This document shows, piece by piece, positions 659-23,832 of a DNA stretch of 47,678 nucleotides (its first letter is position 1; every line of letters starts with the position of its first letter). Origin of the DNA: Promethearchaeum sp. (lineage in GTDB: Archaea > Asgardarchaeota > Lokiarchaeia > Sigyniarchaeales > Promethearchaeaceae); NCBI GenBank assembly GCA_030612265.1, contig JAUWOE010000002.1:1-47678 (forward strand). The letters are read 5' to 3'. Both the position numbers and the translations under genes were made by a program. The notes beneath the pieces are model-generated. The model was not told the DNA's origin, did no database searches, and worked only from the letters and a program-made list of their open reading frames with translations.

Positions 659-790
659 ACTCAAAATTTCTGAGTTTTATCCCCTCGGATCCTCTGAATT
701 CCTTTAGTGATTCCTCGGATAGTAAATTCGGAAAATTTATCAACCTCACCGGCTAAAAAGTTGAATATTTTAGAAGATTTTGATTTAAGT
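659..790 (-). repeat. Dispersed element, copy A (full length)
   Basis: First of five similar intergenic sequences. On the minus strand it carries an open stretch of 42 codons (789 to the TGA at 663-661) with the peptide features FNFL, SEFTIRG, QRIRGDKTQKF and stop. Copies near 3113, 7019, 13261 and 23783 share both the nucleotide sequence and this peptide frame. It lacks its own start codon and has an in-frame stop just upstream. It lies between the first gene and the radical SAM gene, in the longest part of a 355-base gap. Confidence 0.7.
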
Positions 791-863
791 AAATTTTAGA
801 ACATCATCGGTGAATTCAACCTCCAAATATTTCATTTATTTTTGTTTAACGGAAAACAATAAC

Positions 864-873
864 TTTATAAAAA
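864..873 (+). promoter_or_regulatory. TATA box of the radical SAM gene
   Basis: TTTATAAAAA lies 23-32 bases before the ATG at 896, the archaeal box A distance for a transcript with almost no leader. No Shine-Dalgarno sequence is visible before the ATG, which fits leaderless translation. Confidence 0.55.
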
Positions 874-895
874 TTTCCCATATATATTTGATAGT

Positions 896-3067
896 ATGCA
901 AAAAATCTCAAAGAAATTATGTATTGGCATTCCAAAGCGGTATAATCAAAGCATTAATCTTAGAAATCATAGCAGATTTCGGGGATTTTTTGAAGTGTTA
1001 GAGCAAATGCATATAGATTATCACTTTTTTTCTGAAAATCTTTACAATATTGAAGATCTCAATCGATTTGATGCCTTATTATTTAGTAGTCCTCGTAAAG
1101 GAGCTCGAAGAACTCTGTTAAATGGCGAAGAAATAAGAATAATTCGTGATTATTTACGTAAAGGAGGAAAATTGTTAGTATTAATGCGGTTTAGTGGGGA
1201 TGCAAATGAAACTACTAATTTTGGAGATATTATACCCAGAATAAGGCCAAATGATGTTTCTCTAATTCACGAAGAGCATTTCCATAAAAAAATTAATGAA
1301 CCCGTGATCGATTTAGATTTTAATTATGATAATATTTCCTTTAACGGAAAAATATGCTATGATTCAGGATGCACGTTTTCCATGGACGAACCAGTTGATT
1401 TCTCATTAAATTTTATGGAAAATTCCAAGGTAATAAATCATCCAGGAGGAATATGGGATTATGGGAAGAGAGACAAATTTAGAGAAGCCTATGGAAAAAT
1501 TTTCATCCTTAAGCAGGTTGAATTCGGTCGGATAATATATTTTGGGTCAAGATGGTCTTTTAGTGATGAATTTTTATATGAATATGATAACCTACGATTT
1601 TTAGAGACAATTCTTAATTTACTATTTCCTCTATATAATCAACACGAATTAGCTCGAAGAATGGAAATGCCACAGCGGCATCGGCTTTTACATGCTTATC
1701 CAATGGGGCTTGGGCTTGATCCCATTAAAGGTTTAAGCAAAAGAAGGGCTATTTTAAACCAATATTTTAATCATGATCCATTTAATGAAAAACCAGTTGC
1801 TCTTGGAATCATCCCCCATCCACTATGTCGACCGATGGTTGTTGGTTGTGGGTATTGTACTTTTCCGCATGAACCCTATGATTCATTTGTGGAGGATAAT
1901 TGTATTAATTCAGTGATTCAAGAGATTACAAATCTTGGGAAAATGCTTAAAAATCGATCGGTTCAGTCCATATATTTGGGTGGGGGGACTGCAAATTTAA
2001 TTAAAGCCTCAAATTTTTCCAATTTATGTCAAAGCATAAAAAATTCTCTTAATATCTCCCCAACTGCAGAAATTACATTTGAGGGAGCACCTGGTTACTT
2101 TAATTCTGAATTATTGGATATTTTCGCGAAATTTTTCCCTACAAATAGAAAAAGGATAAGTTTAGGAATCCAAACTTTCGATACTGGATTAATTGAAAAA
2201 ATGGGGAGACGAATATTAAATGAAAATATTGAGAAAACCCTAAGACTTGCTAAAGAACGTGGTATTTTGACTTCAGCGGATTTTCTTTTTAACTTACCTG
2301 GGCAAAAAATGGAGGGTATTTACAAAGATGTGGATCAAGCAGTGAAATTACAAATCCCTCATATTTGTTTTTATCATCTAGTATGTTTTCGGGGATTAGG
2401 AACAGTTTGGTCTAAAGATAACAAAATTCTTGAACAAATTCCTTCCAATCCGCTAGCTCTCGATAACTGGTTAAAATTGTACCATTATCTCAATAATTTA
2501 GGATATGAACCTATTACGGTTACTGATTTTAAGAAATGGAATTCTAAGGATGAAGGGAATTATTATTATGAAGAACACCTAAGGCGTCCTGAAAATTATG
2601 ATTGGATCGGTTGTGGTTCAGGTGGCATTTCAATAATAAGCGATTTTAATCAAATGAAAGGAGTAAAAGTAATGAATCCAACTTCTTCTTCAGAATATAT
2701 TAACCTCCAGCAATGTCACAATTTACCCTTTAAATCTTCATTCAGCTATGAAAAACAAGATCTCCAGATAATATGGTTGACTCGCCAATTAAAGGGCCTG
2801 AAAATTTCTTCAAGCCGATATTTACAGCTATTTGGTTCTCATTTAGAACATGATTTCGGTTCTTGGTTAGATACTTGTATAGATGCTGGATTAATTGTAG
2901 CAAAAAAAGGTGATTATATAATTTCACCAAAAGGTATGTTCTATTCTGATTCTATAACCGGACTTTTAGCTCAAAGCCGGGTGACTGAATTAATAAAAAA
3001 TTCGGATAAATCACTTAAAAGGCATAAAAAATATCAGAATGATGCACAACATGAAAGGATGGGTTAA
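896..3067 (+). CDS. HemW-like radical SAM protein with N-terminal GATase/IFT52-like domain
   Basis: A 723-residue protein with two parts. Residues about 5-245 look like the Rossmann-type domain seen in DUF4350/ThuA and IFT52 (GIFT) proteins: FDALLFSSPRKGA at 58-70 and YLRKGGKLLVL at 86-96. Residues about 300-720 follow the oxygen-independent coproporphyrinogen oxidase/HemW plan: a cluster motif near 311-321, GGGT at 362-365, SLGIQTFD near 422-429, FNLPGQ at 465-470 and a C-terminal winged-helix region. HemW-family proteins bind SAM and a 4Fe-4S cluster; HemW itself is a heme chaperone. The cluster cysteines are C311, C318 and C321, spaced CX6CX2C instead of CX3CX2C. The gene stands alone, so its substrate is unknown. 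The start fits the TATA box at 864. Superfamily assignment is firm; heme-related function is not. Confidence 0.85.
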   Translation: MQKISKKLCIGIPKRYNQSINLRNHSRFRGFFEVLEQMHIDYHFFSENLYNIEDLNRFDALLFSSPRKGARRTLLNGEEIRIIRDYLRKGGKLLVLMRFSGDANETTNFGDIIPRIRPNDVSLIHEEHFHKKINEPVIDLDFNYDNISFNGKICYDSGCTFSMDEPVDFSLNFMENSKVINHPGGIWDYGKRDKFREAYGKIFILKQVEFGRIIYFGSRWSFSDEFLYEYDNLRFLETILNLLFPLYNQHELARRMEMPQRHRLLHAYPMGLGLDPIKGLSKRRAILNQYFNHDPFNEKPVALGIIPHPLCRPMVVGCGYCTFPHEPYDSFVEDNCINSVIQEITNLGKMLKNRSVQSIYLGGGTANLIKASNFSNLCQSIKNSLNISPTAEITFEGAPGYFNSELLDIFAKFFPTNRKRISLGIQTFDTGLIEKMGRRILNENIEKTLRLAKERGILTSADFLFNLPGQKMEGIYKDVDQAVKLQIPHICFYHLVCFRGLGTVWSKDNKILEQIPSNPLALDNWLKLYHYLNNLGYEPITVTDFKKWNSKDEGNYYYEEHLRRPENYDWIGCGSGGISIISDFNQMKGVKVMNPTSSSEYINLQQCHNLPFKSSFSYEKQDLQIIWLTRQLKGLKISSSRYLQLFGSHLEHDFGSWLDTCIDAGLIVAKKGDYIISPKGMFYSDSITGLLAQSRVTELIKNSDKSLKRHKKYQNDAQHERMG

Positions 3068-3112
3068 TTATTAGATTGCATTTGAAAACGTAATAAATCC
3101 CGTTCTTTTGTT

Positions 3113-3163
3113 TTTAAAATCAAAATTTCTTCGTTTCATCCCCTTGGATTCTTTGGGTCATAA
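3113..3163 (-). repeat. Dispersed element, copy B (partial)
   Basis: Only the distal part of the element is present. On the minus strand it reads QRIQGDETKKF followed by a stop, matching the end of copies A and C. It begins about 45 bases after the stop of the radical SAM gene and is antisense to it. The rest of the 295-base gap shows no gene. Confidence 0.6.
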
Positions 3164-3362
3164 TTGTATGATATTTTATAACTGATAAAAATTTTCAAGT
3201 CGTTTTTGACCTCCGTTATTATTTGAATTTAATAATTGATTTTTCATAAATAAAATATATAGCTATTTTGTAGATAAAACATTAAATCTTTAGTGAGAAT
3301 CTGAAAGAATTATCCAAATTATCAAACATCATATTTTTACGTTTGATGACCTATTAATATTT

Positions 3363-4436
3363 ATGAGTATAAAAATTGGGCTGATAGAGTTTGGTCATGA
3401 AAATCGGGATTTAAAAATTCCAAAATTATGCTATATTTTTAACGGGGTTCAAAATATTTATCAATTTTACCAAGAAGAGAAAATTTTTGTTGATGAGAAT
3501 AAAACAAACTGGACAAGACAAGAGATTTTGAATCTGGTACGAGAAAAGTTTAATATGGAAAGTCGGGATCTGTTTTTTATCATCCATGAATTTGAAGACG
3601 ATCAATTTTATTTTGCAACCAATTTATTTGGGAAAATAGCGCTTTGTACGACACATGATTGGAAAAATATTTCAACCGAAATCGATGTACTTTATTCACT
3701 TGGGTCTTCGATAATTCAGATTATCCAATATTATGAAATCTATAAGGATGAACCATATAAAGCATCTCAAGAATATATGGAGATCCTATATGCTGAAGGA
3801 AAAGACACCAATCTCTTTCATTTAGCTTCAAGAGGGTGTCTTAATGATTTCTGTCAAAATAAAAAGGAGAAAATCTTTCGTATTCGGACAGGGGATGTAT
3901 GTGATGAATGCCTCGCCATTTGGGAGGAGAAAAACATAGAATCGGAGAAGACGGATGCTTTATTTGAGTTGATCGAGGCTGTAAGAGTAAGAAGTGTGGT
4001 TAATAAAGCTCGAATCAAGTTACGTGCTTATTGTCGGGAACAAATAGCCTTCATAGAACAGGGTCTTCATCAAAAACTTGTTCAACAATTAAAAGAAAAG
4101 TATAAGAAAGACTGGTGGATTAAAGGCATCCCGGAGAATGTTCGAACAAATGCCGCCACAAGATATGAACTACATAAATGTATAGGTGAAAAAATCGATT
4201 ATACAAATCTACTTGATTTACCTAAAATTTGGATTAATAAGTTGAATTATTCGTGGCTAAAATTGAAAAATCCTTTTAATTGTTTTCCAGACAGTAGAAA
4301 TAAAATCGAGGATTTGTTTGGAAAACTCAATGACATTAGGAATTTACTAGTGCATGCAACACGAGAATTCAATCCAACTAAAGAAGATAAAGAATTTGTA
4401 GATGAGATTGCAAAAAAAATCTTTAAAACTTCTTAG
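3363..4436 (+). CDS. HEPN-domain protein with central zinc ribbon (putative RNase)
   Basis: 357 residues in three parts. Residues 1-125 form an alpha/beta domain I cannot assign securely; a stretch around FYFATNLFGKIALCTTHDW recalls archaemetzincin-type proteases but no zinc-protease HExxH is visible. Residues about 155-190 form a zinc ribbon with C159-x4-C164 and C180-x2-C183. Residues about 205-357 are helical and contain R326-N-x3-H331 (RNLLVH), the R-x4-6-H motif of catalytic HEPN RNases such as the Swt1/ApeA types. HEPN RNases cleave RNA in toxin-antitoxin, abortive-infection and stress responses. The gene has no operon partner: the upstream gene ends 295 bases away and a GC-rich island lies downstream. 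HEPN call moderately sure; a defence role is inference. Confidence 0.7.
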   Translation: MSIKIGLIEFGHENRDLKIPKLCYIFNGVQNIYQFYQEEKIFVDENKTNWTRQEILNLVREKFNMESRDLFFIIHEFEDDQFYFATNLFGKIALCTTHDWKNISTEIDVLYSLGSSIIQIIQYYEIYKDEPYKASQEYMEILYAEGKDTNLFHLASRGCLNDFCQNKKEKIFRIRTGDVCDECLAIWEEKNIESEKTDALFELIEAVRVRSVVNKARIKLRAYCREQIAFIEQGLHQKLVQQLKEKYKKDWWIKGIPENVRTNAATRYELHKCIGEKIDYTNLLDLPKIWINKLNYSWLKLKNPFNCFPDSRNKIEDLFGKLNDIRNLLVHATREFNPTKEDKEFVDEIAKKIFKTS

Positions 4437-4439
4437 TTT

Positions 4440-4960
4440 TCCGTAACCGTTAGAAATTTTTACACGAACTCACCGATGACCAAGGCTTCTGGGATGGCAC
4501 TCGAATCTCCCGGGTGGTGATCTCCTTACACCCCCGGGGAAAAATTAACGCATTCCACCCGACGGTTCGATCTGACATGGTGATGACTGAAGGAGGGGGA
4601 ATTAATATCATCTTCGGAGCCGTAGGCTATCGTCAGTGCGTCCGCTCGAGTAAGGTCTTAATAGATGAGTTTCAATCACTTCTCCATCCTGGACGTTCTT
4701 AAGGAGCTGGGTTGCGGTATTTTTGAAATTATATTTGATATTCTGGTTCTGGTGCTGGTGTCTTGCAACTATACGCTCATGTTCCGCATAATTAATTGCT
4801 TCTCTCCGAATTCGCCTCAGGAGGATTCTATTGGAATAGAAGAAATCCGCCACAGTCATAATCTCCCTAAATAATAACAAACATTCCTCTTTCGAGGCAG
4901 AAACTCTTATAAAGTTCTTCACATCCCAGGTACACTGTAAATTCAAGTGGGGTTTAAGAA
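4440..4960 (+). other. GC-rich island without a convincing gene; candidate structured RNA or foreign fragment
   Basis: This gap is visibly richer in G+C than everything around it, most strongly at 4465-4660. A strong hairpin can be drawn at 4509-4539: CCC and GGGTG on the left arm pair with CACCC and GGG on the right arm, with a CC bulge. Two open frames exist (plus strand to 4702; minus strand 4946-4608), but they overlap each other, have poor starts, and neither gives a recognisable protein. In AT-rich genomes GC-rich islands are often structured RNA genes; decayed coding DNA from another source is the alternative. The strand shown is arbitrary. Confidence 0.35.
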
Positions 4961-6122: not shown

Positions 6123-6794
6123 ATGAGCTTAAAAGATTGTAAAACATTGGAAAAAGAAGCAAAAATGCTTGAAAAAGACGAATTGACAAAAGCAGTGGAG
6201 AAATATCAAGAAGCCGCAGCTTGTTATACGAAGAATGAAAAAACAAAAAACGGTAATAATTGTTTAGAAATAATTGGTAAGTTATATAGAGATAATGCAA
6301 AAAGCATTGAAAATCCCGATGAAGCTTTGGTAATATATAAAAAATCTTCAGATTTTTACAACAAAGCGGGAAAATCAGCAGAGGCTGAAAAAGTGCTCAA
6401 AGAAGCAGATTTGAAGTTTATTGAAACCGCTAAGAGTTTACGATTAGAAGCAAAAAATATTGAAAATCCAAGAAAGGCTTTAGAAATCTCAAAACGTGCT
6501 ATTACAAATTTTCGAAAAGCATCAAATGAAGAATTAGAAGAAAAAACATGGTTGGATGCTGCGGAAAAGTTTAATAAAGTTGGAGAAGAGACTGAAAAAT
6601 CAAAGAAAAACATGGCACTTGCGATTGACAAGTACCTTCAAGCCAAAAAATTGTACGGAGAATCCAAAAATATTGATAAAAGTAAAATTCTCGATGAAAA
6701 GGTAAAAAACCTTTGTGAATTTATTGGTCTTCCTCTTGATTTAATCGTTACGCATCTGAAAACAAAAAATATTAATGCAATTGATCTGATCTAA
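6123..6794 (+). CDS. Alpha-SNAP-like TPR solenoid protein (short paralog)
   Basis: 223 residues of regular helical hairpins with the alpha-SNAP pattern: LEKDELTKAVEKYQEAAACY, then NGNNCLEIIGKLYRDNA, then ENPDEALVIYKKSSDFY and so on. The C-terminal block with NLCEFIGLPLDLI is shared with the paralog at 19322. Eukaryotic alpha-SNAP links NSF to SNARE bundles; the archaeal protein can only be inferred to be a soluble adaptor. Compared with the paralog it lacks one 44-residue helical repeat (after residue 104), in frame. The start ATG at 6123 is aligned with the paralog's; an upstream ATG at 6107 is out of frame. The gene is monocistronic, with its own promoter and a terminator-like hairpin at 6803. 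Confidence 0.75.
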   Translation: MSLKDCKTLEKEAKMLEKDELTKAVEKYQEAAACYTKNEKTKNGNNCLEIIGKLYRDNAKSIENPDEALVIYKKSSDFYNKAGKSAEAEKVLKEADLKFIETAKSLRLEAKNIENPRKALEISKRAITNFRKASNEELEEKTWLDAAEKFNKVGEETEKSKKNMALAIDKYLQAKKLYGESKNIDKSKILDEKVKNLCEFIGLPLDLIVTHLKTKNINAIDLI

Positions 6795-6840: not shown

Positions 6841-7018
6841 TTTATAAGAGCTGCGAGTTTTTAATTAATTTTTTTTTATTTTACACCATTTTTAATCAAC
6901 TAAATATAAAATTTTTATCAATATTACAAAAGAAATAATTTTCTGATTAATTTAATTCTATCTTTCTGTAGATTTTTCTATTCCTGCTTAATGTATAAAT
7001 TTGTATTACGAATATTTA

Positions 7019-7157
7019 TTTTTAGAGTCAAAATTTCTGCGTTTCATCCCCTTGGATTCTTTGGTTTCCTTCATTGTTGCCTCGTATAATAAATTCGGTA
7101 ATTTCTTCATTCTCAACTATCAGGAAATTGAATTGCTTGAGAAAATTTGGATTTAAG
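7019..7157 (-). repeat. Dispersed element, copy C (full length; overlaps the ABC ATPase 3' end)
   Basis: On the minus strand it carries KQFNFL, EEITEFIIRGN and QRIQGDETQKF before the stop, in the same frame as copy A. The left part of the element (7113-7155) is used in another frame as the last 13 codons of the ABC ATPase gene, including its TGA at 7113-7115. The rest fills the gap up to the terminator at 6803. Confidence 0.7.
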
Positions 7158-7889
7158 AATTTTTCCGTCTCGCATTCGAATTATACGCTCTGCTAGCGCC
7201 CCAACTGCAGGATCATGGGTCACCATTAAGATTGTCTGATTTAATTCTTTGTTCAGTTCTTGCATTAGTTGAATTATTTCTTTCCCCATTTTAGTATCGA
7301 GTTCTCCTGTTGGTTCATCAGCAATGAGAATAGCGGGTTCATTACTAAGGGCTCGAGCAATAGCAACTCTTTGTTTTTCACCGCCAGATAATTCTGAAGG
7401 AAGAAAATCATATCGATCTTTAAGTTTGACTAATTTAAGGACTCGTTCAACTACCACTTTTCGTTTTTCGGGAGGTTTTTCAGCAAAAATCATAGGGAGT
7501 TCAATGTTTTCATATACAGTTAATACAGGAACAAGATTATAAAATTGGAAAATAAATCCAATTTCTTTAAGTCGTAGATTTGTACTCTCGTGTTCATCCA
7601 TATACGCAATATTAGTTCCCTTAATAAAGACAGCTCCATTGGTTGGATTATCAAGAGCACCTAACATATTGAGTAGGGTGGTCTTTCCCGATCCCGATGG
7701 CCCCATAACGGCAACAAATTCACCTTTGTGAATGGTTAAGTTCACTTTATCTAAGGCATGGATTTCCAGCCCTTCAGTGATGCAATAGGTTTTCGTAAGA
7801 TCAAAGGTTTGAATCATAGCGTCTGAATCGACTTCATATTGATGTTCAAATTGATGGTTTAAAATTTTATGTTTTGTCATTTTCCTCAC
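7113..7889 (-). CDS. ABC transporter ATPase (MacB/LolD type), distal
   Basis: 258 residues with all ABC motifs: Walker A GPSGSGKT at 63-70, Q-loop FQFYNL near 114-119, signature LSGGE at 167-171, Walker B ILIADEP near 187-193, H-loop VTHD near 223-226. This is the LolD/MacB subfamily that powers FtsX-like permeases moving lipids, peptides or drugs from the membrane. It starts with GTG at 7889, directly after the TAA of the upstream ATPase (7892-7890), with GAGGAG about 6 bases before; an ATG at 7880 is an alternative. It is the last gene of the operon. The last 13 residues (from KSKFSQ on) are encoded by dispersed element copy C, so the natural C-terminus has probably been replaced. Confidence 0.92.
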   Translation of the reverse strand: MRKMTKHKILNHQFEHQYEVDSDAMIQTFDLTKTYCITEGLEIHALDKVNLTIHKGEFVAVMGPSGSGKTTLLNMLGALDNPTNGAVFIKGTNIAYMDEHESTNLRLKEIGFIFQFYNLVPVLTVYENIELPMIFAEKPPEKRKVVVERVLKLVKLKDRYDFLPSELSGGEKQRVAIARALSNEPAILIADEPTGELDTKMGKEIIQLMQELNKELNQTILMVTHDPAVGALAERIIRMRDGKILKSKFSQAIQFPDS

Positions 7890-13204: not shown

Positions 13205-13260
13205 GATTACTATAATATAAATATATTACGTTTGTGCAATATCAAAATTATTATATACAA

Positions 13261-13377
13261 TATCATCCCTTGGATTCTTTGAGTTCCTTATGCGTTTCCT
13301 CGTATAGTAAATTCGGTAATTTCTTCAACTTCATCGACCAAAAAATTGAATTGTTCGAGAAGATTTTTATTTAAGTT
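13261..13377 (-). repeat. Dispersed element, copy D (nearly full length)
   Basis: Minus-strand frame shows EQFNFLVDEVEEITEFTIRGN, then an in-frame TAA where copy C reads on, then a shortened end. Its first bases (ACTTAAAT) contain the TAA stop of the hydrolase gene at 13371-13373, so the element begins within the last two codons of that gene. This is the same relation to a minus-strand gene as seen for copy C. Confidence 0.65.
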
Positions 13378-14252
13378 GCTTGTAATTCCTTTAAAATATA
13401 TGAAATTGTTTGGGTATCTTCAAATGCATCATGTCCCTTTCCATGAATTATTTTTAATTTGGTTTCCGGTATGAGATCACACATTTCTTTCAAATATTCA
13501 ATTGGAAAGTAGTAATCTTGATCACCACACACAATAGTGACTGGGACTTTAATATTACCCAAGTTTTTCTTAACATCATGGTTTAATTCTGCTTGGACTT
13601 CAATTAACACATCTTGAGCAAATGAATTGCTTAGGTGTTTTCTTCTAAAAATTCCCATTAAGCGCATAATTGGTTTAAAAAGCATCCTTTTAATTCCTTT
13701 TGGAAATATGGCTTCACTTATCAAGGCATAAGCAGCTCCATTTTTTCCGATACTCAATAATTCTGCAAACTTTTGATCTAGCAATCGCCCTTTTTCAGAT
13801 ATTTTATGGGCTGAGGATAGTATTATAAATTTTTCTGCCAGATTGGGATAAAGAGCACAAAAATGTTGCATTATCATTCCACCAAATGACAATCCGATGA
13901 CTCCATGTACTTTTCCTGCAAATTCGGTGCTAATAATACTAGCATAATCTCCCGCCATCTGTTCAGTCGTATATTCTTGGGGTAACCCTGATTTTCGACT
14001 TATAAAATACAATTTATAATTTTTAATTATCGGAGCAAAGGATTTTATATAGATTTTTAACTCCACTCCTTTTGGTAAATCGTTTCCAGGTCCTCCGAGG
14101 AAAAGCAATACCACTTGTTCACTTTCCCCGATTGAGATATAATCTAATCCCGTAGAAAATTGGCCATATTCAATCTTATTTTTTGACATATGAGTTACAC
14201 TATAGAATAATTTTGATCCAATATAGTTAACCATGGATTTAATATGGATCAA
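13371..14252 (-). CDS. Alpha/beta-hydrolase fold protein
   Basis: Up to 293 residues. The nucleophile elbow GLSFGG holds the probable catalytic Ser, an oxyanion-hole LGGPGND segment lies upstream, the Asp is in CGDQDYYFP, and the His is in GKGHDAF near the C-terminus. The fold is secure; the substrate (ester, amide or lactone) is not. Three in-frame starts exist: residue 1 (14252), residue 7 and residue 22. MSKNKIEYG at 14189 aligns best with where the conserved domain begins and has an AT-rich, TATA-like stretch about 35 bases upstream, so the protein may be 272 residues. The gene follows no obvious partner; its stop codon lies in a dispersed repeat. Confidence 0.8.
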   Translation of the reverse strand: MIHIKSMVNYIGSKLFYSVTHMSKNKIEYGQFSTGLDYISIGESEQVVLLFLGGPGNDLPKGVELKIYIKSFAPIIKNYKLYFISRKSGLPQEYTTEQMAGDYASIISTEFAGKVHGVIGLSFGGMIMQHFCALYPNLAEKFIILSSAHKISEKGRLLDQKFAELLSIGKNGAAYALISEAIFPKGIKRMLFKPIMRLMGIFRRKHLSNSFAQDVLIEVQAELNHDVKKNLGNIKVPVTIVCGDQDYYFPIEYLKEMCDLIPETKLKIIHGKGHDAFEDTQTISYILKELQAT

Positions 14253-14388
14253 ACTTGATCATGGTGCCTTCCTTTTTATTTCCTTGTTTTCCTTCCAATC
14301 ATTATCAGCTTCAATCTCGAGACATCTTTGCGTTCAAGAGTCCAGACATATTTAAAATATCTTCATTGATGCATAATAAAAGATTTTA

Positions 14389-14784
14389 TCATAAATCTTT
14401 TTTAATTTGTAATAAAACATATTTCTTAATCTTTTCTACAGTTTTAATTGCTTCTGCAGAATAATCCGAGTCAATTTCATTGAATTCAGGATATCTCGAT
14501 TCTACAGCAAATGGACTTAATTCTCCACAACTTTTTTTGAATTTCATTATATCATTATCACTAGTTGATAATAAATCAATTAATCTCTCTAAATTATGGA
14601 TTTTGGGAAAATCTATTAAAAGAAAAGTTAAATAGGCTTTAAGATATTTCTCACAAGCCTGCTGTGCATGAAAACAAACAATTGTATTTAAGGAATGAAA
14701 TTCTACTAATTTTTGAGCAGCTTGAAGATCGAGGGCTGCTTTTTTAAGCCAAGAATTAATTAAATCATTAATACTTTTTTTCAT
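14389..14784 (-). CDS. HEPN-domain protein of an MNT/HEPN toxin-antitoxin pair
   Basis: 131 residues from the ATG at 14784, which overlaps the nucleotidyltransferase gene by 17 bases; a longer frame to 14847 would overlap much more and begins outside the conserved domain. Motifs are the HEPN core WLKKAALDLQAAQKLVE, CFHAQQACEKYLKAYL, then H-NLERLIDLL and SPFAVESRYP. In HepT/MntA systems this protein is the RNase toxin, silenced when its partner adds AMP groups to it. The usual R-x4-6-H is not obvious; ESRYP may be its counterpart, so whether this one is an active RNase is open. Confidence 0.85.
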   Translation of the reverse strand: MKKSINDLINSWLKKAALDLQAAQKLVEFHSLNTIVCFHAQQACEKYLKAYLTFLLIDFPKIHNLERLIDLLSTSDNDIMKFKKSCGELSPFAVESRYPEFNEIDSDYSAEAIKTVEKIKKYVLLQIKKDL

Positions 14785-15157
14785 AAATAATCTTTCCTTT
14801 GGAGATAATAGAAGTAATAAATGCTTGTGGTACGTCACTCCATTCATCGATTTCCTTTTCTGTGTATACGATAATATCCATTGGGAAAATTATATTAGAT
14901 AATTCAAAATTAATCGGGATAGATCTTTTATACCTTGGTAATTTACTATCTTTTAATATAACTAGTATGTCAATATCGCTTTCTTCTGTAAAATTCTTTC
15001 CAACATAAGAACCAAAAAGAATTATTTTTTCCGGATTACAGATCTTTTTAATACGAGAAATGATATCTTGCATAATATCCGGTGTTATTTCTTTTGGTTT
15101 AATCAGAGCCATTTTCTTAGTACAATAAACAGAATTTGGAAAAATAAACTTTTGCAT
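14768..15157 (-). CDS. MNT-type nucleotidyltransferase (antitoxin)
   Basis: 129 residues, minimal nucleotidyltransferase fold. The signature runs KIILFGSYVGKNFTEESDID, giving the GS-x-D-x-D metal and nucleotide site, and a third acidic residue lies in MDIIVY. In MntA/HepT pairs this enzyme AMPylates the HEPN toxin near its active site. Starts: ATG 15157 or ATG 15112 (MALIKPKE); the latter gives a length nearer to the family's. It is the first gene of a two-gene operon with overlapping frames, so toxin production is translationally coupled to the antitoxin. Confidence 0.85.
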   Translation of the reverse strand: MQKFIFPNSVYCTKKMALIKPKEITPDIMQDIISRIKKICNPEKIILFGSYVGKNFTEESDIDILVILKDSKLPRYKRSIPINFELSNIIFPMDIIVYTEKEIDEWSDVPQAFITSIISKGKIIYEKKY

Positions 15158-15285
15158 AATTTCACGATTTTAGGAAGTAAAGTTCTTTGTGTCTTGATGA
15201 AGTGAACTATATTTTCTGGGATGTCTATATATTTGATATCATACTAAAGTTTTCCGAGATTTCTAAGGACTCTATACGATCCTGA

Positions 15286-15405
15286 CTAATGGGTATCCAG
15301 GGTGGTTTCCTCATCCACCAGATCCACTTCATATTCTGCTAGATAGCGTATTTTAAGCCAATTGAATTGAAATTCCTCTTCAAAGACGAACCAAGTTTCC
15401 CGAAT
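15286..15405 (-). pseudogene. Remnant of an unknown gene
   Basis: A 39-codon minus-strand stretch is protein-like (FVFEEEFQFNWLKIRYLAEY, then EVDLVDEETTLDTH and TAG), is preceded directly by an in-frame TAG, and has no good start. It looks like the C-terminal end of a lost gene between the toxin-antitoxin pair and the HTH-CBS gene. The remainder of the 264-base gap shows nothing. Confidence 0.35.
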
Positions 15406-15421
15406 CTAAAAATAGGTGCTT

Positions 15422-15985
15422 TTACATTTTAGTAATTAAATCGGAACGGGTAATAATTCCAGAAATCTTTCCCAAGCAAACAGTTAAAACTGCAGGAAAT
15501 ACTTGAAGTATCTGATAAACGGATGATAAATGACTGTTTTCGTCTATAGTTGGCAGCGCTTCTTCCATTATTTCACGGATTGGTCTTTTAAAAAATGATT
15601 CTCGATTTTCCATTAAAAAAAATCTTAAGAGTAATCTTGATGTAACACAACCGATACAAGCACCACCTTCAACGACGGGTATTTGATCATATTGTTCGCC
15701 CATTTTTTTGATAGCATTTTCAATAATATCCACGGGTTTTAAAGTTACAATCGGGAACGTGGCAAATTTTTTGGCAGAGTTTTCACTGTTTTTTATTTGT
15801 TTGTTGATTGATTGCGATAAGATTTTAAATATGGATTGGGCGGTTTCAAATGACGGCTTTTTTTTACCGGATTCAATTTTTGCAATCATAGATTGGCTAA
15901 TACCCGTATTTTCCGCCAATTTTTTCTGTGTCCAATTTAGTTTTTTCCGAAATTTCGCAATATTTGCTAGGTCTGGAAGTTCCAT
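15422..15985 (-). CDS. XRE-type HTH protein with paired CBS domains
   Basis: 187 residues. Residues about 10-60 are a Cro/CI-type helix-turn-helix (RKKLNWTQKKLAENTGISQS then KIESGKKKPSFETA). Residues 75-187 form a CBS pair: QIPVVEGGACIGCVTSRLLL and a second ending SGIITRSDLITK. This HTH-CBS fusion is common in Archaea and is expected to bind DNA in response to an adenine nucleotide or SAM. It lies divergently from the LRR gene at 16135 across a 149-base gap, which includes a direct repeat of AATCTAAAAATAAG at about 16096-16121 close to the LRR start; it could control that gene, though this is only positional. Confidence 0.85.
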   Translation of the reverse strand: MELPDLANIAKFRKKLNWTQKKLAENTGISQSMIAKIESGKKKPSFETAQSIFKILSQSINKQIKNSENSAKKFATFPIVTLKPVDIIENAIKKMGEQYDQIPVVEGGACIGCVTSRLLLRFFLMENRESFFKRPIREIMEEALPTIDENSHLSSVYQILQVFPAVLTVCLGKISGIITRSDLITKM

Positions 15986-16134
15986 AATATCATTAAAACC
16001 GCATTCAATTTATAATATTCCCTTAGGTCATAATTTATCACGTTTAATATTAATAAAAGGAATAATTGATTTTATTGGACAAAATCCAAAATCAAATCTA
16101 AAAATAAGAATCTAAAAATAAGAAGTGGTTAAAA

Positions 16135-17052
16135 ATGATAACAGAATTAGAACATGCAGTATTGAATGAATTTGGCATTAAAATCCATCGAATTAAATGG
16201 TGGGCGGTAAATAAATTTCAAACGGGATATATCGAAGAAAATGGCCATGTTATAAGGCTTAGGGTGTTAATCAATTCCTTTAGTGAAAAATCGCGCAAGA
16301 TGAGTTATGTTTCCCATTGTAGGAATAGAGCGAATTTGAATTGTATTGTAATGTCTTTTGAAAATCTCCCGGAAGCGCAACAACTTAAAATACATAATAA
16401 TGAGTTAAAGAAATTATCCGATTCTATCGGGAATTTGACCGAGCTTCGCGAGTTAGATCTATCTTATAATAATTTGACGGCATTACCTGAATCTTTTGGA
16501 AATTTAAAAAAACTGGAAAAATTAGATCTCAAGTGGAATCACCTTGGTTCATTGCCGAAATCCTTTGGAAACCTCAAAAAGCTTAAAAAACTCGATTTAA
16601 GCTTAAATCACATCCCATTCATACCAGAATCCTTTGGAAACCTTATAAATCTTGAAGATCTTAATTTGGAAGAAAATCCCATAACATCCTTTCCAGATTC
16701 TTTTAGAAGGCTTAAAAGGCTTAAGCAAATCTATTTAGGCTGGAATCCTCTTCGAACATTATCAAATTTACCAATAACTTGTTATTCATCAGCATTTTTT
16801 GGGTATGGGACTTTGAAATTATCAAATACAGGTATGAGACTAATAAAGCAAAAAGATCACAGAGCAATATTTGACTTTTATAGAAAAACACCATTAACAC
16901 TGGCAGAGCAATACATTAAAGACCCTGATTCACTAACATTAAGCGAAAAGAAACGATTAGTATATGAAAGCGGGATAAAAGAGCGTCAAATGCTCGAAAG
17001 GAATATGAAGCCTAGTGATCCGATTTTAAGACAGATCAATAAACGTTTATAG
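16135..17052 (+). CDS. Leucine-rich repeat protein
   Basis: 305 residues. Residues about 82-205 hold five to six 23-residue LRRs of the bacterial/plant-like type with the core LREL-DLSYNNLTALPESFGNL, ending near LGWNPLRTL. The N-terminal 80 residues form an uncharacterised alpha/beta region (WWAVNKFQTGYIEENGHVIRLRV), and the C-terminal 90 are helical (LTLSEKKRLVYESGIKERQM). There is no signal peptide or membrane segment, so it is probably a cytoplasmic protein-binding scaffold. The repeats are similar at DNA level (TCCTTTGGAAACCT recurs), so the number can change by recombination. A second, unrelated-looking LRR protein is at 32434. Confidence 0.85.
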   Translation: MITELEHAVLNEFGIKIHRIKWWAVNKFQTGYIEENGHVIRLRVLINSFSEKSRKMSYVSHCRNRANLNCIVMSFENLPEAQQLKIHNNELKKLSDSIGNLTELRELDLSYNNLTALPESFGNLKKLEKLDLKWNHLGSLPKSFGNLKKLKKLDLSLNHIPFIPESFGNLINLEDLNLEENPITSFPDSFRRLKRLKQIYLGWNPLRTLSNLPITCYSSAFFGYGTLKLSNTGMRLIKQKDHRAIFDFYRKTPLTLAEQYIKDPDSLTLSEKKRLVYESGIKERQMLERNMKPSDPILRQINKRL

Positions 17053-17186
17053 GATCTTAAAAAGATTAAAAAAGGCAAGATTTAGCCCATTTTCTAAAAA
17101 TTCACTATTTCCATTAGTTAATTAAATTCAAGGGGTCTACTCTTTTATGATCTATATCTACACAGATTATGTATACATCTTTCTAA

Positions 17187-18008
17187 GTGTTTCAAATGAA
17201 AAAGCAAAAAATCTTAGTTATTGTAAAAGCATATCCTGAAAAAAGTACTAAATACGGCTCTTCGATATGCACTGCTGGATTAACAGAGAACTCTGAGTGG
17301 ATAAGAATATATCCCATCAGATTGAATATATTACAAAAAAACCAGAATATTTTAAAGAAATGGAATTGGATTGAAGCCAAAATTGAAAAATCAAATGAAA
17401 AGTTAAATAGAAAAGAAAGTTATAAAGTTGATGAAAGATCTATACGCCTAATTAACTCTGAACTTACAAAAACTTACCGGAAAAACACATGGGATGAAAG
17501 AAATAAAATTCTTCTTCCATTATTAAAAAAATCGAGAGAAGAATTGGAATTCCTAAAGCTAACTGAAGATATCTCAATCGGCCTAATAAAACCTAAATCA
17601 TTCGAGTTTTATATTCGAAAACCTATTGACGAAATAAAGGTAATTGAGAATAAATTCACACAACTTAGACTTGATGGATCCAAAATAAGAATACCGGATG
17701 AGATTGGAAATTATTTTGCTTATAAATTTAAGTGTAATGATCCTAATTGTAAAGGGCATGATACAATTTGCGAAGATTGGGAAATTATCGAAGCATTTCG
17801 AAGTTGGCGAAAAAGATATGAGGATTCTGAAACCTTAAAGGAAAAATTATTTGAAAAATTTCAAACTTTTATGGAATCACGAGATTTATATTTTATAATG
17901 GGCACAACTAATCCGTACAATAAATGGGTAATCATTGGATTATATTATCCGCCAAAAATTATTCAAAAGAAAAGAAAATCAAGTTTAGATCAATTTGTGA
18001 AGTCTTAA
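17187..18008 (+). CDS. Unknown protein with Cys/His zinc site, paired with DUF488 gene
   Basis: 273 residues. The N-terminal 50 residues (KILVIVKAYPEKSTKYGSS, then ICTAGLTENSEWIRIYPI) resemble a small beta-rich nucleic-acid-binding domain. The middle is helical and charged. A compact C-x4-C-x2-H-x3-C site (CNDPNCKGHDTIC) followed by DWEIIEAFRSW lies at about 190-210, and the end (DLYFIMGTTNPYNKWVIIGL) looks like a conserved core strand pair. I recall similar proteins beside DUF488 genes but cannot name a function. Here it is convergent with a DUF488 gene, the two overlapping by 4 bases, and a degraded copy of its tail sits beside the second DUF488 gene at 22089. Start may be ATG 17187 or 17196. 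Confidence 0.65.
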   Translation: MFQMKKQKILVIVKAYPEKSTKYGSSICTAGLTENSEWIRIYPIRLNILQKNQNILKKWNWIEAKIEKSNEKLNRKESYKVDERSIRLINSELTKTYRKNTWDERNKILLPLLKKSREELEFLKLTEDISIGLIKPKSFEFYIRKPIDEIKVIENKFTQLRLDGSKIRIPDEIGNYFAYKFKCNDPNCKGHDTICEDWEIIEAFRSWRKRYEDSETLKEKLFEKFQTFMESRDLYFIMGTTNPYNKWVIIGLYYPPKIIQKKRKSSLDQFVKS

Positions 18009-18862
18009 ATTGAACACACACTTTCTCCCATATTTTTTAAGTAATTTCCTACTTCTCTACGATGACATTGCGTTACATCTTTTTCAAAGCACATTAAAGC
18101 AATTCTTCCCTCAATCGCCATATTTTTAATCTTTTGTAGATATTTCTTCTTATTTTGTAATTCACACCTATATTTTTCAAATAGCAAATCATAATCTTGC
18201 TGATTTCGCAGATCTTTACGGAATTCAGGAGCAATTCCTAATTCAGGAATGTGAATATATTCAATTTCAATATTTTTAAGCGATTTTTGCAGCCTATTTT
18301 TATTAAAATTATATTTCATTGAGCGTGGGTTGTATCTGATATCTATTAAGATTTGAATATTATTTAGAATCAATTTATGCATAAACTCGTCTATATCTAC
18401 TCCTTCATAGCCGACTAAAAAGATTCCAGGCTCATTATCCAATATTATTGGTTTTGGAATATATTTTCTGGTGCTTCGACAGGAATATTCAGGGTATTTA
18501 TCATAAACATAATCAATAATTTTTTCGAGGGTTGGGAATTTATGCATCGTATTGTTAATAAAATTAAGCGTATTTTCAGAAATATCCAATTCTTTTCTTC
18601 CTTTTTGTGTTAAAGAATATGAATCTTGATTTTCAACTTTTATCTCATTTATATAATCATTTTTTTGGAGGTAATTTAAATCTGAATACATTTTAAATGA
18701 AAACGGGCCATGTTTATAAGGATGAAAATGATACATTGCAAATTTGGGCGTATTTTCCTTTTCAATCAAAAACATAATCTTCATTAATGTAAGTTTGTCC
18801 AAACGATTATTATTCCCTAAATTTTCAAGGACCCCCAAAAGCAATTTCTGTTTTTTATTCAT
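18005..18862 (-). CDS. DUF488 protein with Panacea/SocA-like N-terminal domain
   Basis: 285 residues. Residues about 1-90 resemble the DUF4065/Panacea domain of SocA-type antitoxins: LDKLTLMKIMFLIEK, then HPYKHGPFSFKMYSDLNYL. Residues about 135-285 are DUF488: FLVGYEGVDIDEFMHKL, LIDIRYNPRSMKYNFNKNRL, YIHIPELGIAPEFRK and a C-terminal LMCFEKDVTQCHRREV. DUF488 is thought to be an enzyme acting on nucleic acid or nucleotides, but its chemistry is not established. It converges with the gene at 17187 (4-base overlap), and both genes took part in a segmental duplication (see 22133). Confidence 0.8.
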   Translation of the reverse strand: MNKKQKLLLGVLENLGNNNRLDKLTLMKIMFLIEKENTPKFAMYHFHPYKHGPFSFKMYSDLNYLQKNDYINEIKVENQDSYSLTQKGRKELDISENTLNFINNTMHKFPTLEKIIDYVYDKYPEYSCRSTRKYIPKPIILDNEPGIFLVGYEGVDIDEFMHKLILNNIQILIDIRYNPRSMKYNFNKNRLQKSLKNIEIEYIHIPELGIAPEFRKDLRNQQDYDLLFEKYRCELQNKKKYLQKIKNMAIEGRIALMCFEKDVTQCHRREVGNYLKNMGESVCSI

Positions 18863-19185
18863 ATCAGATAAATCTCTGTTTAATTATTTAAAAAATACCT
18901 CCAATATAAATTACTATATAGTAAAGAAAAATAAAATACTACCGCACAAATCTCTCGATCAACCATTACAAAAGTTCTATGGCATTTACATTGGTCAATC
19001 TCTGATATTATGAAGAATTATTGGCTATATTTGAGTAGATATTAATTATTAATTTTCTTTCTTTTTCTAAGCCCTAAGGAGATTAATCAATCCAAAAATC
19101 TATTACAATGGAAAAAACAATGAAATTGGGTGATTTTTTCAAAATTTTGTTAATTAGAGAGGAGATGCAAAACCCTCTATCTATA
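18863..19185. other. Gap between divergent DUF488 and SNAP-like genes
   Basis: AT-rich; no convincing gene. It must hold the promoter of the DUF488 gene but I see no box worth naming. One minus-strand open stretch of about 55 codons near 18870-19010 is probably chance. Confidence 0.4.
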
Positions 19186-19207: not shown

Positions 19208-19242
19208 TTCAATAAATGAAAATGAAATATAGGGAGAAAAAT

Positions 19243-19319
19243 AAAGGAAAAAAACAAAGGAAAAAAACAAAGGAAAAAAATGAAGGAAAAAAATGAAGGA
19301 AAAAAATGAAGGAAAAAAG
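19243..19319 (+). repeat. 13-base tandem repeat in the leader of the second SNAP-like gene
   Basis: Six head-to-tail units of (A/G)AAGGAAAAAAA(C/T), the last one base short, ending two bases before the ATG at 19322. The first SNAP-like gene has only two units (6096-6120). Each unit carries an AAGGA that could act as a weak ribosome site, so copy number may tune translation. Confidence 0.8.
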
Positions 19320-19321: not shown

Positions 19322-20125
19322 ATGAGCTTAAAAGATTGTAAAACATTAGAAAAAGAAGCAAAGGCGCTTGAAAAAGATGAATTGACAAAGGCAATTGAAA
19401 AATATCAAGAAGCCGCAGCTTGTTATACGAAGAATGAAAAACCAAAAAACGGTAATAATTGTTTAGAAATAATAGGTAAGTTATTTAGAGTTAATGCAAA
19501 AACCATTGAAAATCCCGACGAAGCTTTAAAAATATATAATAAATCTTCAGATTTTTACAATAAAGCGGGAAATTCAGCAGAGGCTGAAAAAGTGCTCAAA
19601 GAAGCAGATATAAAATTTATTGAGTCCGCTAAGAGTTTACGAATAGAAGCAAAAAAAAATGAAGAGCCTGAGGCCGCTGAAAAAATATTTTCTCTTGCAT
19701 CAGATAATGCTGTAAAGGGTAAAGATAAAGAATTAAGTAATGCTTGTTGGGTTGATTCAGGCAACCAATTCAAGAAAAAGGCAACACAAATTGAGAATCC
19801 AAGAGAGGCTTTAGAAATCTCAAAACATGCTGTTACAAATTATCGAAAAGCATCAAATGAAGAATTAGAAGCTAAAACATGGTTAGATGCTGCGGAAAAA
19901 TTTAATAAAGTTGGAGAAGAGACTGAAAAATCAAAGAAAAACATGGTAACTGCTATTGACAAATACCTTCAAGCCAAGAAATTGTATGGAGAATCCAAAA
20001 ATATTGATAAAAGTAAAATTCTCGATGAAAAGGTAAAAAACCTTTGTGAATTGATTGGTCTTCCTCTTGATTTAATCACTACGCATCTCGAAACAAAAAA
20101 TCTTAAAGGAATTGATCTGATCTAA
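19322..20125 (+). CDS. Alpha-SNAP-like TPR solenoid protein (long paralog)
   Basis: 267 residues, closely similar to the protein at 6123 over its whole length except for an additional 44-residue helical unit (about residues 105-148, from KNEEPEAAEKIF through CWVDSGNQFKKKA). Its hairpins have the SNAP/TPR periodicity with ENP-(D/R)-EAL turns: alternating A-side motifs EALKIYNKSSDFY and EALEISKHAVTNYRK. The end NLCELIGLPLDLI resembles the Leu-rich C-terminus of alpha-SNAP that contacts NSF in eukaryotes; that comparison is inference. It has its own promoter and terminator and lies ahead of the TBP pair. This length is likely the ancestral one, the short copy having lost a repeat. Confidence 0.75.
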   Translation: MSLKDCKTLEKEAKALEKDELTKAIEKYQEAAACYTKNEKPKNGNNCLEIIGKLFRVNAKTIENPDEALKIYNKSSDFYNKAGNSAEAEKVLKEADIKFIESAKSLRIEAKKNEEPEAAEKIFSLASDNAVKGKDKELSNACWVDSGNQFKKKATQIENPREALEISKHAVTNYRKASNEELEAKTWLDAAEKFNKVGEETEKSKKNMVTAIDKYLQAKKLYGESKNIDKSKILDEKVKNLCELIGLPLDLITTHLETKNLKGIDLI

Positions 20126-20322: not shown

Positions 20323-20559
20323 TTTTTATTAAGACAAATTTAGGTTCAATATTTACTTTAGAGAATTCTTATAATGATTCTCAGGGTTCTTTCAGAGTTT
20401 TCTCGTAACGTTGAATTGATAATTTTAAGAAAATTTAAATCACTAAAGAAATATCGGTTAGCTATAAATATCTATTGTTAAAGAACGTCACATTAGGATC
20501 TCAAAAAATCCATAGAAAAACAGAGCAGAACATTTCATAGCAGATTTTCAAAAGCAGTA

Positions 20560-20609: not shown

Positions 20610-21236
20610 ATGATCGAAAATATTTCCATTGCGAAGAAATTTACTTACAAGATACAAAATGTTGTTGCTACAGTTAATACAGATATAGAAAAAAAGATCG
20701 ATTTAACTATAATCGCCAGCGCATATCCTGATGTAGAGTATAATCCGGATCGTTTTCCTGGACTAGTAATGAGGGTTCTTAAACCGAAAGCGACAAGCCT
20801 TATCTTTTCAACTGGAAAAATGGTAATTACAGGGATGAAAAGCCCTACAGAAGCACCTAGTGTTGTGAGCCAACTACTTGCCCGCGTGAAAAAATGCAAG
20901 ATTATAATGAAAAATCCGGTTATTACCATTCAAAATTTTGTTGTGTCTGGTGATATTAAATGCGGAATAGATCTTAATAAAGCAACAATTGTGATGGATA
21001 ACGTTATGTATGAGCCAGAGGTCTTTCCTGGATTGATTTTCCGAATGAAGGAGCCAAAATCGGTTTTGTTGTTGTTTTCAACTGGAAAAATAGTATGTAC
21101 GGGTGTTAAAGACGAAGAAACTGTTATACTCGTATTTGAAAAACTTTATCGTGTTGTTCGTGAATATGGTGTGGATATGGATCTTTCAGAATTTGGAGAG
21201 TTTAATGAAGAAGAAGAAGAAATGTCGTTTTTATAG
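20610..21236 (+). CDS. tbp: TATA-box-binding protein, copy 1
   Basis: 208 residues with the two direct repeats of the TBP saddle: repeat 1 from KIQNVVATVN to about residue 95, with NPDRFPGLVMRV and IFSTGKMVITGMKS; repeat 2 from ITIQNFVVSGDI to about 190, with EPEVFPGLIFRM and LFSTGKIVCTGVKD. TBP binds box A promoters and recruits TFB and RNA polymerase. The C-terminus after residue 190 is acidic (EEEEEMSFL), typical of archaeal TBPs. The start is fixed by the conserved core 12 residues in. A second, clearly paralogous TBP gene follows 152 bases downstream on the same strand. Confidence 0.95.
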   Translation: MIENISIAKKFTYKIQNVVATVNTDIEKKIDLTIIASAYPDVEYNPDRFPGLVMRVLKPKATSLIFSTGKMVITGMKSPTEAPSVVSQLLARVKKCKIIMKNPVITIQNFVVSGDIKCGIDLNKATIVMDNVMYEPEVFPGLIFRMKEPKSVLLLFSTGKIVCTGVKDEETVILVFEKLYRVVREYGVDMDLSEFGEFNEEEEEMSFL

Positions 21237-21388: not shown

Positions 21389-22048
21389 ATGCCTAATTAT
21401 AGATTAATGCCAGAAAATAATTCTGTTAATACCGATGAAAATTATACTTACGAGATACAAAATGTCGTTGCTACAGTAATTGCAGAGATAAAGGAAAAAA
21501 TCGATTTAAATATAATCGCAAGGAAATATCCCGATGTGGAATATAATCCAGAACGTTTTCCGGGATTAGTGATGCGAGTTATTAAACCGAAAGCAACTGG
21601 TCTTATTTTTTCAACCGGAAAAATGGTAATCACTGGAATGAAGAGTCATACAGAAGCGCCTGCTGTAGTGAGTCAAATAATTGCCCGCATGAATAAATGT
21701 AAGATTGATATAAAAAAACCCGTCATTACTATTCAAAATTTTGTTGTGTCTGGCGATATTAAATGTGGAATAGATCTTAATAAAGCAACTATTGTTATGG
21801 ATAATGTAATGTATGAACCAGAAGTCTTTCCAGGATTGATTTATCGAATGAAAGAGCCAAAATCGGTGCTATTACTGTTTTCAACTGGAAAAATAGTATG
21901 TACGGGTGTCAAAGACGAAGAGACTGTGAAACTTGTGTTTGATAAACTTTATCGTGTTGTTCGTGAATATGAAGTGAATATGAATCCTTCAAAATTTGGA
22001 GAGTTTGAGGACTCTGAAGACGGTGAAGAAGAAATGTCGTTTTTTTAA
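21389..22048 (+). CDS. tbp: TATA-box-binding protein, copy 2
   Basis: 219 residues from ATG 21389, or 213 from ATG 21407; alignment of the upstream sequence with copy 1 favours 21407 as the matching start. The core has both TBP repeats (NPERFPGLVMRV, IFSTGKMVITGMKSH; EPEVFPGLIYRM, LFSTGKIVCTGVKD) and differs from copy 1 mostly at conservative surface positions and in the tail (FEDSEDGEEEMSFF). The second repeat is better conserved between the copies than the first. Two TBPs may serve different promoters or TFBs, as known in Haloarchaea and Methanosarcina, or may only raise dosage. The phenylalanines of the DNA-kinking surface are kept in both, so both look functional. Confidence 0.95.
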   Translation: MPNYRLMPENNSVNTDENYTYEIQNVVATVIAEIKEKIDLNIIARKYPDVEYNPERFPGLVMRVIKPKATGLIFSTGKMVITGMKSHTEAPAVVSQIIARMNKCKIDIKKPVITIQNFVVSGDIKCGIDLNKATIVMDNVMYEPEVFPGLIYRMKEPKSVLLLFSTGKIVCTGVKDEETVKLVFDKLYRVVREYEVNMNPSKFGEFEDSEDGEEEMSFF

Positions 22049-22088: not shown

Positions 22089-22136
22089 AAATTATTCAAA
22101 AGAAAAGAAAATTTAGATCAATTTGTGAAATCTTAA
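22089..22136 (+). pseudogene. Tail remnant of the 17187-type gene
   Basis: These 48 bases match the last 18 codons of the gene at 17187 (KIIQKKRK, then LDQFVKS and stop) with a 5-base deletion that breaks the frame. It proves that the duplicated segment carrying the second DUF488 gene once began inside the neighbouring gene. Confidence 0.7.
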
Positions 22137-22861: not shown

Positions 22862-22974
22862 GTTTTAATCTGGAGCTTTTAGAACTTTGAATTATTATAA
22901 ATTTCAATATAAATTTTTATCATCAACTTAATAAGAGTATATTTTTATACTTTTGTTTACTTATATATTATATT

Positions 22975-23265
22975 ATGTCAATTGTGAAAATTACGAACAA
23001 ACAAAATTTAGATGAATTAGTTGCCAAAATCACATTAAGATTAGGGAGAAAACCGACCCAACAAGAAATATTAGATCTCTGTGTAAGATTGGGGCAAGAG
23101 CATTTTGATGAACTAATTCAAAGAATAAATCCAATTCCTATTTTTGATGATAAAAAACTCCAGGATATAATGGCTATGCGTGCAAAACTTTCAAAGATAA
23201 AATGGTATCCTTCGGATCGAGATGATTTTATTAATGATGATGATGCAGATATTTATACTGCATAG
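22975..23265 (+). CDS. VapB-type antitoxin
   Basis: 96 residues: a short strand (SIVKITN) then helices with RLGRKPTQQEILDLCVRLGQ, and a C-terminal tail rich in Asp (DRDDFINDDDADIY). Small size and position 68 bases before a PIN-domain gene fit an antitoxin whose tail wraps the toxin. I cannot place it in a named DNA-binding family with certainty. The 68-base spacer is a purine run (AAAAGGA repeated). Confidence 0.65.
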   Translation: MSIVKITNKQNLDELVAKITLRLGRKPTQQEILDLCVRLGQEHFDELIQRINPIPIFDDKKLQDIMAMRAKLSKIKWYPSDRDDFINDDDADIYTA

Positions 23266-23333
23266 GAAATAAAATACAATGAAATATTTTTAGAGAAAAA
23301 AAAAGGACAAAAAAAGAGGAAAAAGAGTAAAAA

Positions 23334-23759
23334 ATGGCAATCTTCTTAGATACGGGCTTTTTCATAGGTTTAGTCAATCCCAAAGATACTCATTATAAAC
23401 GCAGCGCAGAATTACTAAATCTTTTAAAGACTGGGAAATATGGTCAGATATTTACTTCAACTTACATACTGGCTGAAACTCTAACTTTAGTTGGTGTTAG
23501 GACGAGGAATAATTCGATTGCTTTCAAGGAAGTTGATGATTTCTTCAAGGGAGATAAAAAAATTGCTAGAATTTTAAGACCAGATGATCAAATTGAGAAC
23601 GATACTTTAAAATTGTTTTTAAAGGTGAATAAACAATCAAAAACCAAGACAGTTTCCTTTGTGGATTGTTCAAATATAATTTTTTGTAGAAAGCGCGCAA
23701 TTGACAATATTTTGGCATATGATAGGCATTTTAACGCTTGGTTGAGCAGGTTGTTTTAA
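23334..23759 (+). CDS. VapC-type PIN-domain ribonuclease toxin
   Basis: 141 residues with the PIN acidic residues: D6 in FLDTGFF, E in LAETL (about 48), D in SFVDCSNI (about 111) and D in LAYDRHF (about 130). PIN toxins cut tRNA or rRNA in a metal-dependent reaction until bound by their antitoxin. Paired with the gene at 22975. A diverged copy of its last third is found at 25298-25417, on the other side of the ATPase gene, so the locus has been partly duplicated. Confidence 0.88.
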   Translation: MAIFLDTGFFIGLVNPKDTHYKRSAELLNLLKTGKYGQIFTSTYILAETLTLVGVRTRNNSIAFKEVDDFFKGDKKIARILRPDDQIENDTLKLFLKVNKQSKTKTVSFVDCSNIIFCRKRAIDNILAYDRHFNAWLSRLF

Positions 23760-23782
23760 ATAAATTTTATTTAGTGAGTAGA

Positions 23783-23832
23783 TTAAAATTTCTGGGTTTC
23801 ATCCATTTGGATTCTTCAAATAGTTTTCCTGG
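23783..23832 (-). repeat. Dispersed element, copy E (partial)
   Basis: The distal part only; the minus strand reads RIQMDETQKF and stop, and the DNA matches the other copies in the AAAATTTCTG-GTTTCATCC stretch. It lies 23 bases after the vapC stop, antisense to it, like copy B. Confidence 0.5.

Follow-up and report, generated by a model that had tools for sequence, protein, structure and literature searches.

What is a short repeat that carries a conserved peptide frame and has no start codon? This question is raised by a 47,678-bp stretch of DNA (the window), which is the whole of contig 44 of a genome of the genus Ca. Prometheoarchaeum (Lokiarchaeia; assembly of 3.77 Mb, 317 contigs, 80% complete). 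A first-pass annotation, made from the sequence, listed five dispersed copies (A to E) of such a repeat, all in one orientation, and proposed three possible explanations: the 3' end of a single protein gene that has spread, a mobile element of the non-autonomous kind or a regulatory 3' element. The comparisons with related genomes strongly support the first of these options: the copies are degenerate 3' ends, ~11 to 57 codons long, of a gene for an ArnB-like VWA protein. The relics lie in a stretch of inserted, moved and replaced gene blocks, and it is probable (about 0.7) that they are scars of homology-assisted illegitimate recombination.

The repeat and its distribution

A profile was built from copies A, C and D and the two copies found in relatives (the congeners G001 and G002, each having one single-copy relative of the repeat), and this profile was searched against the window, using 60 dinucleotide-shuffled windows as the control. 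The repeat is real, as copies A to D score far above chance (Table 1), and copy E is weaker yet above the shuffled windows (11.9 bits as compared with 10.3 bits, the top shuffled score). The profile made from the relatives' two copies alone also recovers A (E 1e-42), C (1e-33), D (1e-27), B (2e-7) and E (0.02), and when C is omitted from the profile the value for copy E is 0.025. A candidate sixth copy (F), on the same strand as the others, has a score that is reached by 1 match in 60 shuffles. The five copies of the first-pass annotation can therefore be kept, copy E only weakly, and so can their common orientation, the lack of start codons and the description of B and E as distal pieces. The length of 120-140 bp given for A, C and D does not hold for A, which is longer (~190 bp). 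The shared ending GDETQKF-stop is lacking in D, in which the final codons are garbled and an in-frame TAA is present, and copy E reads RIQMDETQKF, preceded by a stop.

The lengths of the copies are ragged (47 to 196 bp), as are their 5' ends. In the alignment, C and D have nearly the same 5' limit, copy A and the relatives' copies extend beyond C and D by ~45 bp in the 5' direction, and in most copies the similarity ends at, or just past, the old stop codon; the ~24 bp 3' of the stop in copy A are common to the relatives' copies. The genome-wide consensus and peptide searches that had been suggested place the repeat in the window only: in its own genome the DNA search finds no copy outside the window (the next match has an E of 0.0037 over 25 bp), and the peptide search gives no further significant match. 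In G007 (Ca. Harpocratesius repetitus, of the same family as the host), a remnant of ~44 bp adjoins the same neighbouring gene.

The intact parent genes

The full-length parent protein that was asked for is found in four relatives. In a tblastn search, a 41-residue peptide matches open frames in G001, G002, G005 and G007, each time at the C-terminal end; these frames are 386-399 codons long, and in each of these genomes the parent genes (~370-387 codons) are intact, the C-terminus being the conserved peptide ...TQRIQGDETKKIS. The peptide of copy C matches the loci L051 and L054 with tblastn E values of 3e-6 to 5e-6. The parent proteins are of three types, each with a VWA domain (Pfam PF00092, E 7e-17, 5e-12 and 9e-12). 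The type-1 protein, as modelled by AlphaFold (pLDDT 84), consists of a VWA domain, a β-sandwich and a C-terminal helical region, having the overall ArnB fold, and a Foldseek search with this model gives the ArnAB complex (PDB entry: 8s05) at rank 1 (E 3e-21, TM 0.69) and vWA2, a Sulfolobus paralog of ArnB (PDB entry: 5a8j), at rank 4. The copies are assigned as degenerate ArnB-like 3' ends because the intact parents end in the same peptide and have an ArnAB-like predicted fold.

The C-terminal tail, which contains Thr residues, is the best conserved part of the parent family. Outside this family of the Lokiarchaeia the tail is not found among 83 class genomes, except for one marginal match. 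No relative is encoded by viral contigs, and a viral source is rejected.

Table 1 Positions of the copies and of other features of the window. The loci named are those of G001 (L082), G002 (L080 and L083).
Feature	Position	Strand	Description	Basis
Copy A	637..832	-	last ~57 codons of ArnB-like VWA gene and ~24 bp past the stop	profile match 643-828, E 5e-56; blastn to L083:1353-1550 and L082:9610-9801; alignment
Copy B	3112..3158	-	last ~12 codons and stop	profile E 1e-8
Copy C	7015..7166	-	last ~41 codons, open frame	profile match 7015-7168, E 1e-42
Copy D	13240..13380	-	last ~36-40 codons	profile match 13237-13382, E 1e-36
Copy E	23784..23832	-	last ~11 codons, weakest of the five	profile match 23784-23819, E 0.004
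Candidate copy F (possible sixth)	20376..20425	-	resembles ...TIRGNxEGTQR...	8.7 bits, E 0.04
PIN 3' relic	25283..25417	+	decayed last ~42 codons of PIN gene 23334-23759	
UPF0158 remnant	15286..15407	-	last ~40 codons, adjoining the end of a CBS-HTH gene	
LRR gene	16135..17052	+	uninterrupted in the window, then gene 17187-18008	
Module common to G002	3172..4495	+	context differs on both sides	97% to L080:6008-7331

The copies have decayed

The first-pass annotation had taken the maintained reading frame as an argument that the repeat is not a pure RNA or DNA repeat. The minimum number of changes per codon position, counted over A, C, D and the two congeners' copies, is 27/19/28 (p = 0.41), two 1-bp deletions are seen in the alignment of copy A, and copy D has its in-frame stop. 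This flat distribution, together with the frameshifts and stops in A and D, indicates that the frame is inherited from the parent gene and is not maintained, so that the codon-position analysis goes against a maintained frame, yet a parent gene exists. Copy C still has an open frame. At its 5' side, however, it is fused to an ABC ATPase gene (7113-7889), whose last ~11 residues and stop come from copy C, read in another frame; the homologs of this ATPase end near residue 244-248 of 258. Judged from these sequence features, the relics no longer code for a protein, and they are without a function that could be found.

It could be argued that the repeat is a short functional gene or peptide of ~55 codons, since G001 and G002 keep 55-codon frames (with TTG) at the same place and copy B has ATG ACC CAA ... 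(MTQRIQGDETKKF). The substitutions are, however, equally spread over the codon positions, the frames are broken in A, D and E, and 12 of the 17 differences between G001 and G002 are in codons with a changed amino acid, which makes such a peptide highly improbable. The position of copies C and D at the 3' ends of same-strand genes would suit a regulatory 3' element of RNA or DNA (a terminator, for instance) that is kept at gene ends. This explanation is still harder to accept, as A, B and E do not have such a position, the similarity does not continue beyond the region of the old stop in most copies, none of the 22 predicted pairs shows RNA covariation and Rfam has no match at the copies.

The several copies of ~120-190 bp, and the shared 5' limit of C and D, would also be compatible with a non-autonomous mobile element of the miniature inverted-repeat transposable element kind, derived from a gene end. 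Such an element is very unlikely, as the copies vary so much in length, have ragged 5' ends and are confined to one 24-kb stretch in one orientation, and as terminal inverted repeats and target duplications, the latter among the checks first proposed, are not above random for A to D; a 9-bp inverted match at copy E does not exceed the null range, the upper limit of which is 10. Three further candidates were considered. An integron attC-like array is rejected, as a same-strand cassette 3' end is true for C and D only, and site-specific attachment is rejected, as there is no common core and the 5' limits differ. A diversity-generating variable repeat, prompted by the strong difference between the G001 and G002 relics, is rejected because the differences are of mixed kinds and are not confined to adenine positions; no reverse transcriptase turned up, although no search aimed at one was made.

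Comparable 3' ends of other genes

A comparable pattern is seen for three other genes (Table 1). The PIN 3' relic, which is 83% identical to the intact PIN gene over 129 bp (tblastn E 2e-18), starts at the stop of a DUF234 ATPase gene (23938-25290); copy E lies between the PIN gene and this ATPase gene. In G001 the segment L208:260-898, as compared with window 22930-23582, has no more of the PIN gene than its 5' part, which contains two in-frame stops and is followed without a gap by DNA corresponding to the window from 26582 on. The gene from which the UPF0158 remnant derives is whole in relatives (L082:7483-8064). For the LRR gene, the G001 locus L082 has the gene with a 3' end, next an insert that includes a TPR gene, and beyond this the LRR 3' end once more, in decayed form, and the 3' end of the uninterrupted LRR gene of the window resembles the displaced piece of G001, not the current 3' end of the G001 gene. 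The order of new 3' end, insert and old 3' end is thus seen for LRR when G001 is compared with its uninterrupted relative in the window, and PIN is consistent with it. For LRR the evidence for the insertion route is direct in outline.

Genes of contigs 151 and 307 have given rise to similar pieces. In a survey of partial gene copies in a 1.41-Mb sample, 14 of the 25 isolated partial copies (away from contig ends) are C-terminal, 4 are N-terminal and 7 are internal, and in 8 of 21 cases of 3' fragments, C and D included, the fragment starts ≤57 bp from the stop of a same-strand gene. In G005 an intact VWA gene of the third type is followed, 5.2 kb downstream and on the same strand, by a 148-bp, 84%-identical partial copy of its 3' region. 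This partial copy (L197:1597-1744) lies a short way upstream of a DUF234 ATPase gene (L197:1825-3240), in the orientation opposite to that gene. The arrangement beside a DUF234 ATPase gene is as for copy E and is possibly an old, shared one.

A mosaic stretch

When compared with the congeners, the window is a mosaic of blocks (3172-4495, 13444-14319, 14247-15407, 15409-17065, 16716-18935 and others) that differ in order and context. At the synteny break 3171/3172, seen against L080, the identity ends abruptly, 13 bp from the 5' end of copy B. Copy D starts at the stop of a hydrolase gene (13371-14252). The congeners' VWA relic (L082:9601-9774 and L083:1353-1550) has a difference of 10.3% between G001 and G002, compared with 2.5% in the surrounding 1.4 kb (p = 1e-5). 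This excess divergence is consistent with recombination, and would be expected if such segments recombine. The 5' edge of the G001 relic has a 7-bp tandem duplication.

Several other features of the window are recorded here in their own right. A PIN/antitoxin pair (38942-39708) is 96% identical (G000, G002) to L207:640-1442, which is at a different place; in G002 the pair comes directly after a DUF234 ATPase gene. Two tandem genes for TATA-binding proteins (20610-21236 and 21389-22048, both on the plus strand; Pfam TBP, E 3e-54 and 4e-55) are ~81% identical in part, and a block matching both is present in G002 (L209:10535-12133). The plus-strand genes 6123-6794 and 19322-20125 are near-identical, with a weak SNAP/TPR match and ends that are 93% identical, the second gene being longer, and the latter is preceded, at 19240-19318, by a series of 13-bp repeat units resembling AAAAAAATGAAGG.

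Origin of the copies

In the proposed mechanism, incoming DNA would have homology to the 3' end of a resident gene and would carry a neighbouring gene. One end would recombine by homology in the resident 3' part, and the other end would be joined illegitimately, so that the resident gene would acquire a new 3' end and be followed first by the inserted gene and then by the old 3' end. If this is repeated at the same gene, several old 3' ends would result, all in one orientation, which would then decay and be trimmed by later insertions. The VWA copies presumably arose as the LRR pair did, and the intact parent would then have been lost, or would lie in the unassembled part of the genome.

A simpler alternative is tandem or local duplication of the whole ArnB-like gene, followed by ordinary decay that leaves the conserved end recognisable, with no special insertion process. 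All copies are within 24 kb and on one strand, decay is evident in them, and the tail is the best conserved part of the family, so that decayed copies would be recognised by their tail. However, nothing of the middle or the N-terminal part of the VWA gene is detected next to the copies, even when E values up to 20 are admitted. Copies C and D begin where unrelated genes have their stops, and PIN and LRR show the same arrangement, having an intact parent and a second copy that is the 3' end only. Duplication of the whole gene is therefore considered unlikely.

Several observations weigh against the recombination scars. An intact VWA parent of this subfamily is found neither in the own genome (80% complete) nor in the genus. 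The aligned break is seen for copy B alone; for A, C, D and E no contig of a relative spans both sides. C and D sit at the 3' ends of same-strand genes, and A, B and E do not; these three adjoin opposite-strand genes, so that a later insertion is needed for them. The count of 14 against 4 comes from few cases, two of which form an orthologous pair, 5'-end fragments occur too (the PIN 5' part in G001), and the G005 partial copy is without the last 28 codons, so that the 3' bias is not strict. It is also possible that the short-read assembly of a metagenome-assembled genome blurs repeat-rich junctions.

A strict 3'-only rule was considered and is ruled out by the 5' fragment of PIN in G001 and the tail-less fragment of G005. 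Only tentatively can it be suggested that in these archaea gene 3' ends are preferred entry points for foreign blocks, that a block arriving with a homologous gene end would provide the resident gene with a new C-terminus and displace the old 3' end, and that arrays of same-orientation scars record successive insertions at a single gene, here the ArnB-like one, a generalization that we regard as doubtful.

The odd repeat with a conserved peptide is thus resolved into gene debris, ordinary in kind and somewhat unusual in arrangement, and the search for its parent has identified ArnB-like VWA proteins, some with a gene for an FHA partner, in Lokiarchaeia. The main use of the relics is as a record of gene-block insertion in this stretch. 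If the copies are indeed recombination scars, then same-orientation 3' remnants would be a simple marker with which gene insertions in Asgard archaea, made without an integrase or transposase, could be counted and ordered.

Comparison with known systems

In Sulfolobus, the phosphorylated C-terminal bundle of ArnB is bound by the FHA protein ArnA (PMC6509490). The Lokiarchaeia parents are like ArnB/vWA2 of the Sulfolobus archaellum regulatory network (PMC6509490; PDB entries: 5a8j and 8s05) in having a VWA domain, a β-sandwich and C-terminal helices, and by analogy their conserved, Thr-bearing tail may correspond to the region that ArnA binds. As for the ArnA-ArnB pair, a zinc-ribbon/FHA gene adjoins two parent genes, being located directly downstream of them in G001 and G007 (loci L054 and L056); the downstream gene of L056 has the Pfam FHA and zinc-ribbon domains, and the partner at L054 is assigned by similarity of sequence and place. 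This partner does not adjoin the type-1 genes L048, L051 and L052. The likeness to Sulfolobus ArnB is one of domain and predicted fold, not of a role in motility, and the window holds relics only. The identity in the structural alignment is ~20%, and the model has two short C-terminal helices only, with no clear four-helix bundle.

Integration at tRNA genes also leaves same-orientation 3' ends of one gene with inserted DNA between them. Unlike the tRNA 3' fragments left by integrases (see PMC9897764), the copies have neither a common core nor a fixed 5' limit, and the targets are different protein genes. Those inserted genes that were compared with Pfam include no integrase; no systematic search for one was made.

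The copies are like the pseudogenes and gene remnants of prokaryotes (Pseudofinder, PMC9336565), being intergenic fragments of a known gene that are shortened and have broken frames, and both homology to part of an intact gene and disabling changes are found at them. They are unlike usual remnants in that several pieces of the same 3' end occur in one orientation within one 24-kb stretch. This arrangement can also be compared with the homology-assisted illegitimate recombination described for bacteria (PMC2884548). The variable segments of that system are described for bacterial species and have repeats that are mostly <30 bp, and the repeated part of a gene 3' end is longer here (85-330 bp); in both, small blocks are replaced at given sites, the border sequence is partly repeated and no integrase or transposase is needed.

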